A stretch of DNA of 33,724 nucleotides from Longimicrobium sp. Its GTDB lineage: Bacteria > Gemmatimonadota > Gemmatimonadetes > Longimicrobiales > Longimicrobiaceae. The translations under genes and the position numbers were made by a program. Below the pieces are notes generated by a model. It worked only from the letters and a program-made list of their open reading frames with translations. It was not told where the DNA came from and did no database searches. How positions within the stretch are numbered: position 1 is the first letter of the stretch; every line of letters starts with the position of its first letter. The stretch covers positions 1 to 33,724 of the forward strand of contig DASUYB010000123.1 in the NCBI GenBank assembly GCA_036377595.1, in the 5' to 3' direction. Below are positions 4,065 to 32,135 of this stretch, one piece after another.

Positions 4065-7000
4065 TCAGCCCCCGGCGGCGGCGGTGGCCACGGCGTCGCC
4101 CAGCGCGGCGGCGATGGAGCCGGCCAGGCGCACCGCCAGGTCCTCCACGAACGGATGCTGGAGGATGGTCCCATGGCTCCCCCCCATGCGGTGCACCGTC
4201 GTCCCCCCCAGCGCGCGCGAGCTCCAGTACTCCACCGCGCCGTCGCGGGGAAGCGCGCGCTCGCTGGCCGCGGTGCGCACGTACGTCAGGTGCCCGTCGT
4301 ACGCGGGGGGATCGTAGTCCACCAGCGCGCCCAGGTTCGCGCGCCGCACGCGGGTGAGCGTCAGCACCTCGTCCACCCGCGACGCGGGGAGGAGCTTCGG
4401 CGACTTCACCACCCGCACCGCCTCGGTCGCCTGCTCGCGGTGGGGGAGATGGCGGATCTTCTCGATCCGCACCAGCGACGCGGCGGCCCAGCCGATCAGG
4501 TCCGCCACGATGCGCTGGAGGACGCGCGCGTGGTCCAGCGCATCGCCGGCCCGGTCGCGCGGGGTGGGAACGCCGGTGTCGAGCAGCGCCACCATCGCCA
4601 CGTCGTACCCCGCGGCGCGCATCTGCCGCCCCATCTCCCACGCCACCAGCCCGCCGAACGACCATCCGCCCAGCAGGTACGGCCCCTCCGGCTGCAACTC
4701 GCGCACGGCCGCGGCGAAGTACGCGGCGATCTCCGGGACCGTCTCCAGCGGCATCAGCCCGTCGTCCGTCCCCCGCGCCTGCAGCCCGTACACCGGCTGG
4801 TCCGCGCCCAGCAGCCCGGCGAGATGGTGATAGCACACCACGTGGCCGCCCCCCGGCGGCGCCAGGAAGAGCGGCGGCCGCGCGTCGTCCGCGTGCGCCG
4901 GGAGATGGAGGGGGATGAGGGGCGGCTTGCTCTGCGCGCGCCCGCCGGTCAGCGCGCCCGCCAGCCGCGCGACCGTCGGCGCGTGGAGGACGGCGGCCAG
5001 CGGCATCTCCATCTCCAGCTCCGAGCGCACGCGCGCCGCCAGCCGCGCGGCGATGATCGAGTGGCCGCCCAGGTCGAAGAAGTCGTCGTGGATCCCCACG
5101 CGCTCCATCCCCAGCACGTCGGCCCAGATCGCCGCGAGCTTCGCCTCCAGCGGCGAGCGCGGCTGCGTCGCCCGCCCCGCCGCCGTCTCGTCCGCGGGGG
5201 CGTCGGGGAGGGCGCGGCGGTCGACCTTGCCGCTGGTGGTGCGGGGGAGCGCGGCTAGCCAGGCGAACGCGGCCGGCACCATCGCGTCGGGCAGCCGCTC
5301 GCGAAGGTGCTGGCGCAGCTCCGCCGCCGTCGGCCGCGCCTCGTCCTCCTTCGCCACCAGCCAGGCGGCCAGCCGCCGCGACTCGCCCTCGCCGCGCGCG
5401 TCGACCGCGGCCTCGGCCACGGACGGGTGCGCGGCCAGCGCCGTCTCCACCTCGGCCGTCTCGATGCGCACGCCGCGCACCTTCACCTGCGCGTCGCGGC
5501 GGCCCAGGTGCTCCAGCGTGCCGTCGTCCAGCCACCGCCCCGCGTCGAGCGTGCGGTACATCCGCGACCCCGGCGGCCCGTACGGATCGGGGCGGAAGCT
5601 CTCCGCGGTCAGCGCCGGCCGCCCCGCGTACCCCCGCGCCACCCCCGCGCCGGCCAGCCAGATCTCCCCCGCGACGCCGATGGGCGACGGGCGCAGCTCC
5701 GCGTCGAGCACGTACGCGCGGCCGTTGGAAACGGGCGCGCCGATGGACATCCGCCGCACCTCGCGCGGGATCTCCCACGCGGTCGAGTAGGTGGTGTCCT
5801 CCGTCGGCCCGTAGACGTCGATCACCCGCTCCACCACCCCCGTCGCGTACAGGGCGCGGGCGAGCGCGAGGGGGACCGCCTCGCCGCCGATCATCAGCAC
5901 CCGCACGGTGGCGGGAAAGCGCCGCTCGCGCAGCATCTCCGCCGCGACCGAGGTGACCATGAACGCCAGGCGCGGCTCGCGGCCCGCGGGGATCGCCTCG
6001 AGCGGGCCGCCGGTGAGCACCAGCGCGCCGCCCCACGACAGCGGTCCCCACATCTCCATCAGCGTGGGATCGAAGGTGACGGTGCTGTGGGCGAGCACGC
6101 GCGCGCGGTCCTCTTCCGCCACCGTCCGCCGCACCCAGTCCAGCAGGGCCACGCCGCTGCGATGCTCGATCTCCACCCCCTTGGGGCCGCCGGTGGATCC
6201 CGAGGTGGTGATGACGTAGGCCAGGTTCTCCGGCGCGAGGGGGACGTCCGGGTCCGCCGCGCTCTCGCGCGACAGGTCGGCCGCGTCCAGGGCGATGGCC
6301 ATCACCCCGCGCGCGTCCTCCAGCGCCCCGCGCGAGGCGGCGTCGGTGAGCACGGCCGCCGCCCCCGCGCCGCGCAGCACCGCCGCCACGCGCGCCGGCG
6401 GGTGCGTGGGATCGAGCCCGACGTACGCGGCGCCGCTCTTCATCACCCCCAGCAGCGCGGCCACGAGATCCGGCGTGCGTTGCATGCAGACACCCACGCG
6501 CGCCTCCGGCCTGGCTCCGAGACGGCGCAGGCGGTGGGCGATGCGGTTCGCGCGCGCGTTCAGCTCACCGTACGTCACCGACACGTCCGCGCCGAACTCG
6601 ATGGCGATCGTATCCGGCCGCTCGCGGGCGATCCGCTCGAACGCGTGGTGGATGCACCCGGCGGGGATGGGGGATTCCGTGCGGTTCCAGTCCTCCGTGA
6701 TGCGCTGGACCTCGCCCGCGTCGTGGATCGCCACCGCGGCGAGCGGCTGATTGGCGTCCGCGACGAAGCCGGCGAGCATCGCCTGCAGGCGGCGGAGGAG
6801 GCGCGCGGCGGTCGCCGGCTCGTAGAGGGCAGCGGAGAACTGCAGCTCCAGGTGCAGCCGGCCGCCCATCTCCTCGGCCAGCAGCGTCATGTCGAACGGC
6901 GAGGTGCCGGTGTCGACCACCTCGAACGCCATCTCCGCGCCGGGAAAGGCGGGCGGCACGGCGGCGTGGTCGCCGTAGACGACCAGCGACTGCACCAGCG

Positions 7001-9282: not shown

Positions 9283-9323
9283 GGGGCGCGCCGGCCCCCG
9301 CGAACGCCGGACCGGCGCGCCCC
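9283..9323 (+). promoter_or_regulatory. Long GC hairpin in hsp20 leader
   Basis: A perfect 12-bp stem (9283-9294 with 9312-9323, arm GGGGCGCGCCGG) encloses 17 bases. It ends about 53 bases before the hsp20 start and does not cover the ribosome site. Whether it is in the mRNA leader depends on an unseen promoter. It is too stable for a ROSE-type thermometer. Confidence 0.4.
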
Positions 9324-16686: not shown

Positions 16687-16777
16687 CAGTGCCCAGTGCC
16701 CAGTGCCCGGTGCCCAGTGCAACAAAGCCGGGACCGCGGGGATCTCCCTGGGCACTTGGCACTGGGCACTGGGCACT
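16687..16777. repeat. Heptamer array CAGTGCC with inverted partner
   Basis: Five direct units lie at 16687-16721: CAGTGCC three times, then CGGTGCC and CAGTGCA. After 28 bases come four inverted units at 16750-16777 (GGGCACT, TGGCACT, GGGCACT, GGGCACT). The two arrays can pair into a long hairpin. The right end touches the pyk stop codon (16778-16780), so it may act as its terminator. Confidence 0.85.
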
Positions 16778-18559: not shown

Positions 18560-18583
18560 ACGCGGAGACGCGGAGGCGCGGAG
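18560..18583 (+). repeat. Octamer array ACGCGGAG, half copy
   Basis: Three tandem 8-base units: ACGCGGAG (18560-18567), ACGCGGAG (18568-18575) and GCGCGGAG (18576-18583). They are preceded by GCCTC and followed by AACTCA. No inverted partner is present. Confidence 0.7.
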
Positions 18584-18656
18584 AACTCACTGCGGCCGCC
18601 CGATCACCGGCCGGGGGTTTGCGTCAGCGGGGGGCGAACCGATCTGCGGAGGAGTG

Positions 18657-21896: not shown

Positions 21897-21959
21897 GAGT
21901 CCTGGGTCCTGAGTCCTGGGTGCTGAGTGCTGAGTGCTGAGTGCTGAGTGCTGAGTTTA
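21897..21959 (+). repeat. Heptamer array GAGTGCT
   Basis: This is a strict period-7 array of nine units: GAGTCCT, GGGTCCT, GAGTCCT, GGGTGCT, then GAGTGCT four times and a diverged last unit GAGTTTA. Unlike the other AGTGC arrays it has no inverted partner nearby. It lies 142-204 bases upstream of the clpP start. Confidence 0.9.
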
Positions 21960-23361: not shown

Positions 23362-23439
23362 AGGCCTCTAACAGAGGACACAGAGGCCACGGAGGAAGAA
23401 ATCTGTTCTCCGTGCTCTCTGTGTCCTCTGTGAGAGGCT
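23362..23439. repeat. Nonamer palindrome (ACACAGAGG family), copy 1
   Basis: The left arm holds three 9-base units: TAACAGAGG, ACACAGAGG and CCACGGAGG (23369-23395). The right arm (23406-23439) reads the same units in reverse: TCACAGAGG, ACACAGAGA and GCACGGAGA on the minus strand. The element folds into a long imperfect hairpin and lies between glyQS and the LVIVD gene. Confidence 0.8.
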
Positions 23440-25053: not shown

Positions 25054-25123
25054 GTCTCACGGAGAGCACAGAGGACACGGAGAACTGATTCTGTTCTCCG
25101 TGTCCTCTGTGTCCTCTGTGAGA
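25054..25123. repeat. Nonamer palindrome, copy 2
   Basis: The left arm (25054-25084) holds TCACGGAGA, GCACAGAGG and ACACGGAGA. The right arm (25094-25123) reads the same kind of units in reverse. The central loop is about 9 bases. It lies 28 bases past the HD-GYP gene... on its downstream side (minus strand) and may end that transcript. Confidence 0.8.
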
Positions 25124-28380: not shown

Positions 28381-28443
28381 GTCATCTCCTCCCGGTTGGT
28401 GATGTACCGGCCGCGCGGATTCTCGATCGACTCCGCGACCTCT

Positions 28444-28467
28444 CTCCGCGTCTCCGCGCCTCCGCGT
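28444..28467 (-). repeat. Octamer array ACGCGGAG, half copy, minus strand
   Basis: Three tandem units in reverse: CTCCGCGT (28444-28451), CTCCGCGC (28452-28459) and CTCCGCGT (28460-28467), followed by GAGGC. It lies between the amidase gene and pyrF, with no partner arm. Confidence 0.7.
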
Positions 28468-28567: not shown

Positions 28568-29806
28568 TCACTCCGAGGCAGGGCGCACCCCCGGGCGGTC
28601 GAAGTACGCGCGCACCGCGTCGGCCAGCTGCCGGGCGATCGTCGCCTCCATGTCGCGGTCGTTCAGCAGCTGCTCCTCGCGGTGGTTGGAGATGAACCCG
28701 ATCTCCACCAGCACCGCGGGCATGAAGCTGCCGCGCAGCACCGCGAAGTTCGCCTGCTTCACCCCGCGGTCGGGCCCGGGGTGGATGGCCCGCAGCCCGT
28801 CCTGGATGCGCTGCGCCCACTCGCTGCTCTCGCGCAGGTAGTGGTTCTGGCGCAGGTCGGTCAGGATGAACCCCAGCGCGTCGCCGTTGGCCGCGTGCTC
28901 TTCGTACTGCACCGACGCGTTCTCGAAGTTGGCCACGCGCTCCGCGTCGGCCGTCCTGGCCTCGGACAGGAAGTACGTCTCGAACCCCTTCTCCGCGCGG
29001 CTCTCGTTGGCGTTGCAGTGGATGGAGATGAAGACGGCGGGCTGCCCCGAGTCCTTCCAGCGGTTGGCGAAGCGCGTGCGGTCGTGCAGGGCGATGAGGG
29101 TGTCGCGCTCGCGCGTCATCCGCACCTCGAGGGTGGGATCGTCGCGCAGGAGGTCGGCCACCATCCGCGCCACGCGCAGGGTCACGTCCTTCTCGCGCGT
29201 GCCGTTGGGCCCGCGCGCCCCGGGATCCACGCCGCCGTGCCCCGCATCCACCACGACGAGGCGACGGTGCGGCGTGCGCGTGGCCGCCGTCTGCACCGCG
29301 GGTGGCTGGGGACGCGCGGCGGGCGGCGCCTCCGCGGACGGCCCGCCGGCGCGCACCGCCGCGTCCGCGCCGGCGTCGGCGAGGGCCACGCGCCGGACCG
29401 TGCGCGCCGCCACGTCACCGTACAGCCCGCCGCGCGACGCGTCGACCAGCGGCGTGCCGAAGAACTCCACGGGAACGAAGACGGTGCCGTTCTCGGAGTA
29501 GACGGCGTGCTCCAGCATCCGCGGCTGCCCGTCCACGCGGATCTCGGGCGAGCCGGGGGCGAAGCGCACCTCGCCGGCGCCCAGGCGGGCGACCACCGCG
29601 TCGCCCTCGTACGCCAGCTCGGCGCCCAGGCTTACCAGCGCCGAGGCGGGGAGCGCGGGATAGCCGCGGGAGCCCGACTCGCGCACCTCCACCGGCGCGC
29701 GGCCGGACTCCAGCCGCCACGCCGCGGGGCGGTTCTGGGAGAGGAGACGGGTTGTCGGGAGGGAGAGCAGGGCGGCCAGCAGGAAGGCAGTGGGTCGACG
29801 GATCAT
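28568..29806 (-). CDS. N-acetylmuramoyl-L-alanine amidase (Amidase_3)
   Basis: This encodes 412 residues. A signal peptide (about 1-24, FLLAALLSLP) exports it to the periplasm, where it cuts the amide bond between muramic acid and the stem peptide. Residues about 30-125 resemble the small beta domain found before such amidases (copper-amine-oxidase-N/AMIN-like: YPALPASALVSLGAELAYEGD, GTVFVPVEFF). A Pro/Ala-rich linker to about 195 precedes the zinc amidase, which has VVVDAGHGGVDPGA, GTREKDVTLRV, FISIHCNANES and VLVEIGFISNHREE, supplying His, Glu, His and Glu. The start overlaps the smpB stop by one base (TGATG), so the two are translationally coupled. Confidence 0.93.
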   Translation of the reverse strand: MIRRPTAFLLAALLSLPTTRLLSQNRPAAWRLESGRAPVEVRESGSRGYPALPASALVSLGAELAYEGDAVVARLGAGEVRFAPGSPEIRVDGQPRMLEHAVYSENGTVFVPVEFFGTPLVDASRGGLYGDVAARTVRRVALADAGADAAVRAGGPSAEAPPAARPQPPAVQTAATRTPHRRLVVVDAGHGGVDPGARGPNGTREKDVTLRVARMVADLLRDDPTLEVRMTRERDTLIALHDRTRFANRWKDSGQPAVFISIHCNANESRAEKGFETYFLSEARTADAERVANFENASVQYEEHAANGDALGFILTDLRQNHYLRESSEWAQRIQDGLRAIHPGPDRGVKQANFAVLRGSFMPAVLVEIGFISNHREEQLLNDRDMEATIARQLADAVRAYFDRPGVRPASE

Positions 29807-30288
29807 CAGAACTCCCTGTCCTTGAATCCGCGTTCCATGTCGCGCTCCTCGGCGCGCTCGCGCAGCGAGTCGCGCTTGTCGTGCAGCTTCTTTCCCCGCA
29901 CCAGCGCCAGCTTCACCTTGGCGATCCCGTTGCTGAAGTGGATGTCCAGCGGCACCAGCGTCAGCCCCTTCTGCTCCACCTGCCCCACCAGCTTGCGCAG
30001 CTCGCCGCGGTGCATCAGCAGCTTGCGGGGGCGAAGCGGGTCGTGGTTGAAGCGGTTCCCCTGCTCGTAGGGAGAGACGTGCAGGTTGTACAGCCACAGC
30101 TCGCCGCCGCTGAAGGTGGCGAAGGCGTCGGCCAGGTTGGCCTTGCCGGCACGCAGGCTCTTGACCTCGGTCCCCTGCAGCACGATCCCCGTCTCCCAGG
30201 TGTCGAGCACGTGGAACTCGTGGCGAGCCTTGCGGTTCTGCGCGACCACGCGGTCGCCGGACCGTTCTTTTGGTTGCGGGGAGTTCAT
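29806..30288 (-). CDS. smpB: SsrA-binding protein SmpB
   Basis: This 160-residue protein binds tmRNA and brings it to stalled ribosomes for trans-translation. Typical motifs are VAQNRKARHEFHVLDTWETGIVLQGTEVKSLR, NLADAFATF, LWLYNLHVSPYEQGN, RPRKLLMHRGEL and KLALVRGKKLHDKRDSLRER. The basic C-terminal tail (RAEERDMERGFKDREF) is the part that enters the decoding centre in the family. The ssrA gene itself is not in the window. The amidase gene overlaps its stop. A possible promoter lies so close that the mRNA may be leaderless. Confidence 0.97.
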   Translation of the reverse strand: MNSPQPKERSGDRVVAQNRKARHEFHVLDTWETGIVLQGTEVKSLRAGKANLADAFATFSGGELWLYNLHVSPYEQGNRFNHDPLRPRKLLMHRGELRKLVGQVEQKGLTLVPLDIHFSNGIAKVKLALVRGKKLHDKRDSLRERAEERDMERGFKDREF

Positions 30289-30292
30289 CTAT

Positions 30293-30320
30293 CTATTACA
30301 CGCGATGTCGGCGGAGTCAA
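30293..30320 (-). promoter_or_regulatory. Candidate smpB promoter, possibly leaderless
   Basis: On the minus strand TTGACT (30320-30315) and TAATAG (30298-30293) are 16 bases apart. The -10 ends only four bases before the ATG (30288-30286). A start about seven bases downstream would coincide with the ATG. No ribosome site precedes smpB, which agrees with leaderless translation. Confidence 0.45.
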
Positions 30321-30346
30321 TGCCGGTGAATGTTATGGCATTGCAA

Positions 30347-30543
30347 CGGAGTGCGAAAGTGCGCCAGTGCGGGAGTGCGAGAGTTCGCCAGTGCGGGAGT
30401 GCGAAAGTGCGCCGGTGCGAGAGCGTAACTGCGATATTGCGAGCCATCCATCACCCGCACCATGAGATGACACGGTTCACGGAACAGTGCGCCGGACCGC
30501 AACGATCCGGCGCACTCACGCACTTCGGCACTCACGCACTCGC
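30347..30543. repeat. Octamer arrays with AGTGC core, direct then inverted
   Basis: Ten direct 8-base units cover 30347-30426, mostly of the form GNNAGTGC (GAAAGTGC, GCCAGTGC, GGGAGTGC and variants). Four inverted units (GCACTCAC, GCACTTCG, GCACTCAC, GCACTCGC) cover 30512-30543. Between them are 85 bases with a small hairpin. The layout matches the heptamer arrays at 16687-16777, and the inverted array ends four bases before the L,D-transpeptidase stop. Confidence 0.85.
30487..30515 (-). terminator. Hairpin after L,D-transpeptidase gene
   Basis: GTGCGCCGGA (30487-30496) pairs perfectly over 10 bp with 30506-30515, with a 9-base loop. It lies 32 bases past the transpeptidase stop on the minus strand and overlaps the first inverted octamer. 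Confidence 0.55.
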
Positions 30544-30546
30544 GGT

Positions 30547-31176
30547 TCAGTAGATGAACACCGGCGTCCCCACGTCCACCTGGTGGTAGAGATACCGCGC
30601 CGCCTCGTTCGACATGCGGATGCAGCCGTGCGAGACGTTCTGCCCCAGCAGCTCGGGGTGGTTCGTCCCGTGCACGGCGATGCCCTCGCCCAGGTAGAGC
30701 GCCGTCGTCCCCAGCATCCCGCGCTCCCAGCGGCGCGGCGAATCGGCCGGGGGAATGGGCTGCTTGCGCTCGATGTACTGCCAGTCGGGCACGTACCAGC
30801 GCGGATTCTTCTCCTTGCGCTGGATGCGGAACATCCCGCGCGGGGTGGAGAACTCCCACTTCTGCCCGGCGCCCTCGAGCCGCGTTCCCGTTCCCGTCCC
30901 CACCACGGCCGACCAGAGCACGCGCGACTCCTCCATCAGGTACAGCCGGTGCTCGGCCAGCGAGATCACCACGTAGGTGCCCTCGACGTTCACCGGGGGG
31001 TCGCGGTAACGCTCGGCGCCCTCGCCGGCCACGCCGTGCTCCAGGGCCAGCGGCTCCAGCGGCAGCTGCGCCATCGCCGCCCGCGCGGACAGCGCCGACG
31101 CGCCGAGGACCAGCCCCAGCATCGCCATCCCGCGCACCTTCGCACTCACGCACTCTCGCACTTTCGCACCCCTCAT
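30547..31176 (-). CDS. L,D-transpeptidase (YkuD domain)
   Basis: This encodes about 209 residues. A signal sequence (LGLVLGASALSARAAMAQ) sends it to the periplasm, where such enzymes form 3-3 peptidoglycan crosslinks or attach lipoproteins. The YkuD active-site region is IAVHGTNHPELLGQNVSHGCIRMSNEAARYLY with the nucleophilic Cys; VISLAEHRLYLMEESR and TPRGMFRIQRKE are also typical. Three starts are possible: 31191 (ATGA overlap with the yihY-like stop), 31176 (chosen, GAGGAG four bases upstream) and 31128 (AAGGTG upstream, directly before the hydrophobic core). An octamer array lies between the last two, so the extra N-terminal residues (KVRECVSAKVRG) are repeat-derived if translated. Confidence 0.88.
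   Translation of the reverse strand: MRGAKVRECVSAKVRGMAMLGLVLGASALSARAAMAQLPLEPLALEHGVAGEGAERYRDPPVNVEGTYVVISLAEHRLYLMEESRVLWSAVVGTGTGTRLEGAGQKWEFSTPRGMFRIQRKEKNPRWYVPDWQYIERKQPIPPADSPRRWERGMLGTTALYLGEGIAVHGTNHPELLGQNVSHGCIRMSNEAARYLYHQVDVGTPVFIY
31134..31173. repeat. Octamer array with AGTGC core inside L,D-transpeptidase start region
   Basis: Five tandem 8-base units in reverse: GCACCTTC, GCACTCAC, GCACTCTC, GCACTTTC and GCACCCCT. On the minus strand these read GAAGGTGC, GTGAGTGC, GAGAGTGC, GAAAGTGC and a diverged unit, the same family as 30347-30543. The array lies between alternative start codons of the transpeptidase. Confidence 0.85.
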
Positions 31177-31187
31177 CGCACTCCTCG

Positions 31188-32135
31188 TCATTCCAGCAGC
31201 TCGCGCTGCATCCGCCGCTTGCGCATCAGGTCGTACACGTGGGCGATCTCGCCGCCCAGGATGAACACCACGGCCGAGTAGTAGATCCACAGCACCAGGA
31301 TAATCGGCGTCACCAGCGCGCCGTACACCGTGGTCCACCCCGTGGAATGCAGCACGTAGGTAGCGAACAGCCCCTTGAGCAGCTCCCACGCCAGCGAGGT
31401 GAACACCGCCGCCACGATCGCCATCCGCCAGGGCGTGCGCCGCTTGGGAAGGTAGCGGTAGATCAGCAGGAACATCAGGAAGATGAACAGGAACGCCAGC
31501 AACCGCGCCCACACCAGCTGCACCGTCTGCACGTCCAGCCACCGGCTCCCGATCAGCCGCACCCCCATCTCCTGCGCGGCGGTGAGGATCACGGTGATCC
31601 CCGTGTTGGCCACGAACAGCGTTCCCGCCACCAGCACCATCTGCAGGTCGAACACCTTCCCCTCCACGATCCCCCGCTCCTCGGGAAGGTCGAAGATCTC
31701 CTTCAGCGAGGTCCGGAGCGTGGCGATCAGCCGCGTGCTGCTCCACAGGAAGAGCACCAGGCCGATCACGCCGAAGCTGGTGCGCCCCGCCAGCACCGCG
31801 TCGATGATCTGGTAGGTGCGGTTGACGACCGACTCGGTGGGGGGGAGGATGGTGACGACGTAGTCGACCGCCGCCTTGCGCGGATCGTCGACGATGCGGT
31901 TCAGGACGATGCCGAAGATCCCCACCAGCATCAGCAGGAAGGGGATGGCCCCGAACACCACGTCGAAAGCGATCCCCCCGGCCAGGAAAAAGATCTCGTC
32001 CTCGCCGGCCTTGCGGTACAGGTGCGCGACGAAGTCTCCTCCGCCGCGCGTGACGCGCGCGAGGGCCGCCACGGCGGCCCTCGGCACGTTCACCCGGCGC
32101 GTCCAGCGCCTGCGCTCGGCGGTCGGCGGAGACAT
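31188..32135 (-). CDS. YihY/BrkB-family inner membrane protein
   Basis: This 315-residue membrane protein has about six hydrophobic helices. Family motifs include FFLAGGIAFDVVFGAIPFLLMLVG, a cytoplasmic middle, LIYRYLPKRRTPWRMAIVAAVFTSLAWELLKGLFATYV, and GALVTPIILVLWIYYSAVVFILGGEIAHVY. The family was once annotated as RNase BN in error, and its function is not settled. Its TGA overlaps the most upstream possible ATG of the L,D-transpeptidase (ATGA). Genes for a YtxH-like protein and a CheY-like regulator lie 49 and 594 bases upstream on the same strand, so a four-gene operon is likely. Confidence 0.92.
   Translation of the reverse strand: MSPPTAERRRWTRRVNVPRAAVAALARVTRGGGDFVAHLYRKAGEDEIFFLAGGIAFDVVFGAIPFLLMLVGIFGIVLNRIVDDPRKAAVDYVVTILPPTESVVNRTYQIIDAVLAGRTSFGVIGLVLFLWSSTRLIATLRTSLKEIFDLPEERGIVEGKVFDLQMVLVAGTLFVANTGITVILTAAQEMGVRLIGSRWLDVQTVQLVWARLLAFLFIFLMFLLIYRYLPKRRTPWRMAIVAAVFTSLAWELLKGLFATYVLHSTGWTTVYGALVTPIILVLWIYYSAVVFILGGEIAHVYDLMRKRRMQRELLE

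Follow-up and report, generated by a model that had tools for sequence, protein, structure and literature searches.

Short tandemly repeated sequences (STRR) form heptamer arrays in cyanobacteria. The heptamers GGGAATC and GGGGA(C/T)T of Xanthomonas and Nostoc are intergenic, most commonly occur as four units, and combine a fixed core with variable positions (PMC4692102). They lie on the coding strand within 50 bp of stop codons and on the non-coding strand near the next start, they are rare between divergent genes, and they form facing pairs in 70 and 75 cases in two Xanthomonas genomes. Array lengths vary at the same genes between relatives, 83% of the repeats are found at the same genes in the sister species, and no function has been assigned to them (PMC4692102). 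Rehm et al. (2015) related this unit number to quadruplexes, which have four G-tracts (PMC4692102). REPs are palindromes of 20-40 bp that are sorted by a shared end sequence (PMC3733652), and REP-like hairpins without U-tracts occur in many copies behind genes and have been proposed to stabilise 3' ends (PMC13289151). The TAACTGA heptamers of the Beggiatoaceae are intergenic, occur in 2-6 copies at many places, and stand just upstream of start codons, nearly all of them direct and unpaired (MacGregor 2015, PMC4679880). The open-access literature searched contained no report on tandem repeats of Longimicrobium and none on intergenic repeats of Gemmatimonadota with a terminator; five array strings occurred there in a single paper, on a plant virus.

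In this study, the octamer arrays at positions 30347-30543 of a 33,724-nt stretch of DNA (the window) are compared with these systems. The window forms contig C123 in the draft genome (7.2 Mb) of a soil bacterium from the Longimicrobium group (Gemmatimonadota; GC 0.70 in the sample), and the arrays lie between the stop codon of an L,D-transpeptidase gene and smpB.

Sequences and samples

The own sample consisted of the window, L123-L182 and L203-L222 (1,193,257 bp, 16,443 of them N), with contigs chosen by number and the first 20 kb or less taken from each. The G003 sample consisted of L192-L202 and L223-L242 (494,851 bp). Sequences L009-L028 were chosen for holding hits and were kept outside the own sample; together with the smpB loci L183-L191 they were added for the arm and pair, linker, U-tract, loop, wobble, both-arm and quadruplex counts. 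The orthologous-region comparison set the own sample plus L009-L028 against the G003 sample plus L183-L191. Facing order, region classes, single arrays, anchor tests and gene-end counts used the two samples alone, and the 20-shuffle test the own sample alone. Regions containing N were removed from the arm, linker, U-tract, shuffle, anchor, gene-end, quadruplex, both-arm/wobble and single-array counts. Gene calling relied on a home-made finder based on codon usage, whose stops are more reliable than its starts.

Layout of the arrays in the window

The minus strand is the sense strand of both neighbouring genes, and 5' and 3' arms are named in that sense. The features are as follows.

29806..30288, minus strand: smpB, the next gene downstream (Pfam PF01668, E 8.6e-60)
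30293..30320, minus strand: putative promoter-like TTGACT-N16-TAATAG ahead of smpB, spotted by eye
30347..30430, minus strand: 3' arm, about ten period-8 units with seven exact GCACT cores (the plus strand reads AGTGC)
30486..30516, minus strand: inner hairpin that includes the fourth core, AGTGCGCCGGATC-GTTGC-GGTCCGGCGCACT
30511..30541, minus strand: 5' arm, four AGTGC cores with period 8, beginning 6 nt past the L,D-transpeptidase stop
30547-30549, minus strand: TGA stop codon of the L,D-transpeptidase gene, the anchor of the 5' arm
30547..31149, minus strand: L,D-transpeptidase (YkuD) gene (Pfam PF03734, E 5.9e-28)
16687..16777, minus strand: second complete example, heptamer arms of AGTGCCC directly behind the pyruvate kinase stop
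21897..21956, minus strand: array of heptamers (GCACT/GGACT units), lying between clpP and an LVIVD-repeat gene
31140..31169 (within 31140-31180), minus strand: single sense AGTGCG array without an inverted partner, between a brkB-like gene and the L,D-transpeptidase gene

Read in this sense, the TGA is thus followed by 6 nt, the four-core arm, the inner hairpin, a spacer of about 55 nt, the opposite arm with its ten units (30430-30347), the promoter-like stretch and smpB. TTGACT also stands ahead of smpB in L114 and L115. The repeat finder reported 30349-30423 as a period-8 array of GAGTGCGA (9.4 copies, 70% matches) and also as a period-24 super-repeat (3.2 copies, 88%), and 30511-30541 as an inverted period-8 array of CGCACTCA (3.9 copies). 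The preliminary description counted ten direct and four inverted octamers. The ten are reached only by including degenerate units, as exact AGTGC cores number seven; the four agree with four exact GCACT cores. An extra AGTGC/GCACT couple makes up the small hairpin at 30486-30516. The heptamer arrays used there for comparison are present as well, at 16687-16720 with 16748-16777 and at 21897-21956. The single array near 31140-31180 begins just past the stop of the brkB-like gene and extends to the predicted start of the L,D-transpeptidase gene.

Excess over chance and distribution

Shuffled intergenic DNA had been named beforehand as the check on AGTGC periodicity, which clearly exceeds it: 147 AGTGC triplets at period 7 or 8 were counted in 702 intergenic regions of the own sample (174,514 bp) and 0 in each of 20 shuffles. 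Five such triplets lie in the intergenic region 30250-30546, where 0 of 2000 dinucleotide shuffles had any. In an 845-kb own sample the distance from one AGTGC to another was 7 in 87 cases and 8 in 108, with further peaks near the multiples; the other distances from 5 to 40 occurred 6 times or fewer. Over the whole genome, period-8 triplets numbered 323 forward and 273 reverse, and the reversed pattern 15 and 14, a control that is inflated by the arrays because CGTGA recurs inside GTGAGTGC arrays. The own sample (1.19 Mb) has 96 runs of at least three AGT[G/C]C, and the G003 sample (0.49 Mb) has 67 (reversed core 10 and 8); octamers were found as well as heptamers. Fourteen of the 96 and seven of the 67 fall outside the listed intergenic regions. 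The arrays did not stand out in a count of over-represented 8-mers.

The pattern AGTGC(N2-3)AGTGC(N2-3)AGTGC was used to determine the distribution. All ten genomes of the genus that were examined were positive, with 95 to 1858 matches, as were 3 of 11 in the rest of the family (143, 28 and 5 matches) and one (2 matches) among 40 genomes from elsewhere in the order. Across the phylum 43 of 395 sampled genomes matched, those outside the genus mostly with few copies and often with different linkers; the distant genome G167 gave 136 matches, but its control was equally high (149). In these surveys, too, the reversed-pattern control picks up some of the arrays. A second core word, AGTCC, accompanies AGTGC. 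Of 21 relatives, 6 have AGTCC(YR) arrays, and each of these belongs to the ten genus genomes. A scan of viral contigs gave 10 stretches, judged by run counts and GC. The core and layout common to periods 7 and 8, noted at first for the window, are therefore seen genome-wide and genus-wide. The AGTCC core, the four-core arm size and the stop-codon anchor are absent from that earlier sequence-only account.

Anatomy of the arms

Neighbouring arrays no more than 200 nt apart run AGTSC and then GSACT, facing each other, in 44 of 44 cases. Four cores are the commonest number in the 5' arm (27/63) and in the 3' arm (28/63), and this holds for either period; the array lengths given by the repeat finder are most often 31-33 nt in period 7 (45/96) and 30-32 nt in period 8 (18/61). 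Among 88 stop-adjacent arms, which were included if at least three of the first four cores were exact, the heptamer arms have exactly four full units in 27 of 43, usually followed by the half unit AGT, and the octamer arms have four units in 16 of 45 and three in 15 of 45. The two arms share their period in 60 of 63 pairs and, among heptamer pairs, their core type in 27 of 34. Loops measure 12-101 nt, and 29 of the 63 fall in the range of 19-26 nt.

In the middle units (304 heptamers, 291 octamers) conservation is 92-99% at core positions but 39-54% in the linkers; these units were not selected by sequence, but being taken between two exact cores they favour good arrays. Octamer linkers are mostly TG, AG, GA, AA and GG, and heptamer linkers mostly TA, CA and TG after AGTCC and CC, TG, CG, CA, CT and TA after AGTGC. 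Among three orthologous arms, differences affect 2 of the 64 positions in cores and 4 of the 18 in linkers (p 0.019). This strong conservation of core over linker suggests that something may also read the sequence, and it is compatible with recognition by a putative bound protein. The idea of a mechanism of growth stood in part. Several long arrays have homogeneous units, some of them being very long, and these arrays and the 24-bp super-repeat are what slippage or duplication would give; the commonest arm, however, has about four cores with mixed linkers and is not a runaway array.

The stop-codon anchor

Sorting by the nearest stop codon, as had been suggested, proved to be the key to the arrangement. 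In codirectional regions of 60-600 nt, taking the first array per strand, 50 of 54 sense AGT[G/C]C arrays lie no more than 13 nt behind the stop, where random placement within the same regions expects 7.6 (p 4e-38). Opposite-sense arrays lie near the next start in 6 of 50 cases (8.3 expected, p 0.57), and a start-codon element was set aside on this count; because starts are called less reliably than stops, the start-anchoring test and the divergent class are weakened. Single sense arrays are also anchored, 13 of 16 lying at most 11 nt past the stop, and so are 12 of 16 arrays in convergent regions; 1 of 16 in divergent regions is anchored to a start. Considering all regions, most arrays are directed away from the gene boundary closest to them (65/82 in the own sample, 51/60 in G003).

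Of the 1381 gene ends in both samples, 64 bear an anchored arm. None of 390 gene ends less than 40 nt from a codirectional neighbour has one, and 48 of 521 at 100 nt or more do. Array-bearing regions make up 13/172 of the divergent, 71/716 of the codirectional and 14/141 of the convergent class, and by this count a reduction between divergent genes is not clear. Both arms occur together in 35 of 853 codirectional regions, where about 4.5 would be expected if they were independent (65 and 59 regions per arm). One arm alone is present in 54 of 89 array-bearing codirectional regions, which is partly a threshold effect, as the thresholds overlook degenerate partners and over-count single arms. A three-frame stop insulator, in which TAA/TGA units at period 7 or 8 would place stops in all frames, was dropped as a candidate because the units AGTGCCC, AGTGCGAG, AGTGCGGG and AGTGCGAA contain no stop (by inspection).

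Folding, terminators and quadruplexes

The two complete examples in the window are predicted to fold stably, at -98.6 kcal/mol (z -3.85) for the smpB site and -75.8 kcal/mol (z -7.3) for 16687-16777. Covariation at the level of units was absent, pairing with the own arm being no better than with arms swapped within a class (p 0.32, 0.36 and 0.41), and so was the wobble asymmetry of an RNA, with A-to-G changes that preserve a wobble pair at 7/156 in 5' arms against 18/221 in 3' arms (p 0.21). Covariance models of Rfam 15 gave 0 matches at E <= 1 in 29700-31300.

TTTT lies within 12 nt of 10% of 58 and 18% of 56 array flanks in the two reading directions (background 1.3%), and is missing from more than four fifths of them. 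Canonical terminators were found past 1 of 61 codirectional gene ends with arrays and 56 of 698 without; at convergent ends the counts were 2 of 16 and 32 of 254. Some arrays adjoin a canonical terminator (L175, L179 and L213). Two matches to the Rho RNA-binding domain exceed the cut-off in the window's genome (G000:C17:8249-8470 and G000:C7:1649-1867, in open reading frames 421 and 431 aa long), which therefore possibly encodes two Rho factors.

No strand carries a quadruplex motif in 59 of 63 pairs and in 84 of 88 stop-adjacent arms; the other 4 pairs have one on the complement of the 5' arm. The four-core peak persists in the quadruplex-free pairs (25/59 5' arms, 24/59 3' arms). A G-quadruplex as the general cause was ruled out by the 59 pairs without a motif.

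Turnover between species

The smpB site retains repeats in several genomes with different words and periods. Of the loci that a search with SmpB returned, the nearest (74%) belongs to Longimicrobium sp. YPbin7 (G004), of the same genus group. The arrays are octamers (4+4) in G006 and heptamers mixing AGTGC with AGTCC in G004 and G007; G005 combines a long 3' array with two heptamer arrays in sense orientation. As the matched proteins of G004, G006 and G007 are 93.7-94.9% identical in this region, the octamer and heptamer states have given way to one another recently; in all three the hairpin extends almost to the smpB start codon. G008 (L185) has GGGAATA heptamers, starting from the stop codon TAG, opposite GCACTTTC octamers, and these arms hardly pair. 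GGGAATA resembles the GGGAATC repeat of Xanthomonas. G001 has a 3'-type array alone, and G009 an ordinary GC-rich inverted repeat without an array. In G003 the L,D-transpeptidase gene does not adjoin smpB, yet an array stands ahead of smpB (by inspection).

At other genes, a whole hairpin is present in G003 and missing in the window's genome at L158/L239 and L152/L198, and at L126/L241 the word differs between the two genomes in both arms. In 71 comparisons of orthologous regions at least four core words were found in the own genome in 9, in the other in 16 and in both in 7, which is not a clean rate, since one site compared with several genomes and another AGTCC...GGACT element are mixed in. 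The 58 hairpin loops are almost unrelated between sites (mean best score 9.4 against 8.2 for simple shuffles), and the top loop match is a remnant of an arm; a mobile cassette with a shared body was rejected on the loop comparison.

Other repeat families

Facing pairs of other arrays, with arms mostly of 22-27 nt, were seen in the window at 18560-18584, 23371-23396, 25092-25120 and 28443-28467. Their words are ACGCGGAG at period 8 and ACGGAGGNN, GCAGAGNNN and ACAGAGGNN at period 9. The first three families are densest between convergent genes (0.38, 0.35 and 0.26 per kb, against 0.05 or less between divergent genes) and in this are like bidirectional terminators. A dispersed REP- or MITE-like element, GCGAAT.AATTCGC-GGCAACAAC...CACAAAGTCC(GCCTTCGC or CTGCG)GGACT, is intergenic at L152, L227, L237, L238 and L183, sometimes as two inverted copies within 100-200 bp.

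Proposed role and competing explanations

We propose that the facing arrays are 3'-end RNA hairpins, serving as a REP-like stabiliser or a partial terminator, and we give this reading about an even chance. The position, orientation and size of the arms, the folding of the window examples and the turnover between species are the observations from which it starts. The two arrays would be the arms of a tandem-repeat stem at the 3' end of the upstream gene, with a plan that in the gene sense runs from the stop through usually 0-13 nt, about four AGT[G/C]C cores spaced by 7 or 8 nt, and a loop to about four or more GSACT units. We infer that the arrays are transcribed and that the fold matters in the cell; a transcript reaching beyond the stop codon would contain the repeat, whose arms would fold into a long hairpin that sets or protects the mRNA 3' end by blocking 3' exonucleases. 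It would halt the trimming of transcripts whose release lies further downstream, for instance through Rho, as REP-like hairpins lacking U-tracts are described to do (PMC13289151). Partial termination is an alternative job. Because most of the hairpins have no U-tract, the step acted on is more likely exonuclease attack than classical termination. A hairpin is favoured by the stop anchor, the facing order, the excess of paired arms, the matching periods and core types of the two arms, the folds in the window, and the retention of the smpB site while word and period change. Against it stand the lack of covariation and of wobble asymmetry, the many single arms, the few U-tracts, the arrays in 13 of 172 divergent regions and the different words of the two arms in G008. 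At smpB a full terminator would also be awkward, as in G004, G006 and G007 the hairpin lies near the start codon.

The strongest rival is a protein that would read four AGTSC cores at a spacing of 7-8 nt on RNA or DNA, with free linkers and a secondary role for the stem, which we consider possible though unlikely. TRAP follows a comparable logic, in that spaced triplets are read by a protein; we know of no protein that binds AGTSC arrays. The conservation of cores over linkers in middle units and in orthologous arms points to such a reader, as does the anchoring of single arms; the middle units were picked between exact cores, however, and a single-arm binder would need neither strict facing nor agreement of arm periods. 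That the arrays are mutational by-products with little or no function, made and pruned by slippage and hairpin-templated copying, is an unlikely explanation. It would account for the very long homogeneous arrays, the super-repeat, the fast turnover and the nearly unrelated loops, but not for the stop anchor, the single facing order, the size of about four cores in both periods or the maintenance of cores while linkers vary. Ordinary intrinsic terminators whose stems were enlarged by repeats are improbable: 3' flanks that are rich in T at some sites (at smpB, for example, in G007 and G006), the TTTT frequency above background and the scarcity of canonical terminators at codirectional array ends speak for them, whereas more than four fifths of the flanks have no TTTT within 12 nt and some arrays already adjoin a canonical terminator. 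Mobile hairpin cassettes that insert behind stop codons are highly improbable. The hairpins found whole in G003 only, the period switch at smpB and the Y1 transposase matches in 9 of 10 genus genomes would fit them, but the loops are hardly related between sites, no target duplication was seen by eye, and G004 (86% complete) has arrays (95 triplets) and no Y1 transposase match.

A more elaborate version, which we regard as quite doubtful, is a dedicated, sequence-specific gene-end system in which a factor reads four AGTSC cores placed directly behind the stop codon and some maintenance process rewrites both arms together, as from octamer to heptamer or from AGTGC to AGTCC, while site, arm size and facing are kept. 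If it were true, hairpins of four units anchored at the stop would serve bacteria generally as a gene-end device, with different words in several phyla and without a quadruplex.

Comparison with known repeat systems

The Longimicrobium arrays are like cyanobacterial STRR in being heptamer arrays, and period-7 arrays of AGTCC/GGACT were observed at two cyanobacterial loci, in Phormidium sp. LEGE 05292 (L066) near 4855-4880 and 5550-5590, and in Anabaena azotica (L068) near 9285-9310. They share with the TAACTGA repeats of the Beggiatoaceae intergenic heptamer arrays at many loci, and differ in being stop-anchored and often paired. Like REP and BIME elements they are multi-copy hairpins behind genes; unlike these, their stems are tandem arrays and their loops are unrelated.

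The closest likeness is to the Xanthomonas and Nostoc repeats of Rehm et al.: intergenic arrays, four units, a position after the stop, facing pairs and a fixed core. Their coding-strand position after the stop corresponds to the 50 of 54 arrays found here within 13 nt of it (7.6 expected); for their non-coding-strand position near the start the comparable count here is 6 of 50 (8.3 expected), where our start calls are less reliable. The Longimicrobium arrays differ in their words, in combining the periods 7 and 8 within a genome, and even at a single orthologous site, in carrying a quadruplex motif in 4 of 63 pairs, on the complementary strand of one arm, and in appearing and vanishing as whole hairpins where 83% of the other repeats stay at the same genes. 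We regard them as a variant of the Xanthomonas GGGAATC layout that is new in its words, its two periods and its mostly quadruplex-free sequence.

The Xanthomonas and Nostoc heptamers remain without a function, and their four-unit size had been explained by quadruplexes. A near-identical layout of four units, stop side and facing order, built from words that are mostly incapable of forming a quadruplex, points instead to a gene-end hairpin or a four-site binder. A single genus offers natural variants with two periods, several words, single and paired arms, and presence or absence at the same gene, which makes both readings of this shared layout testable.
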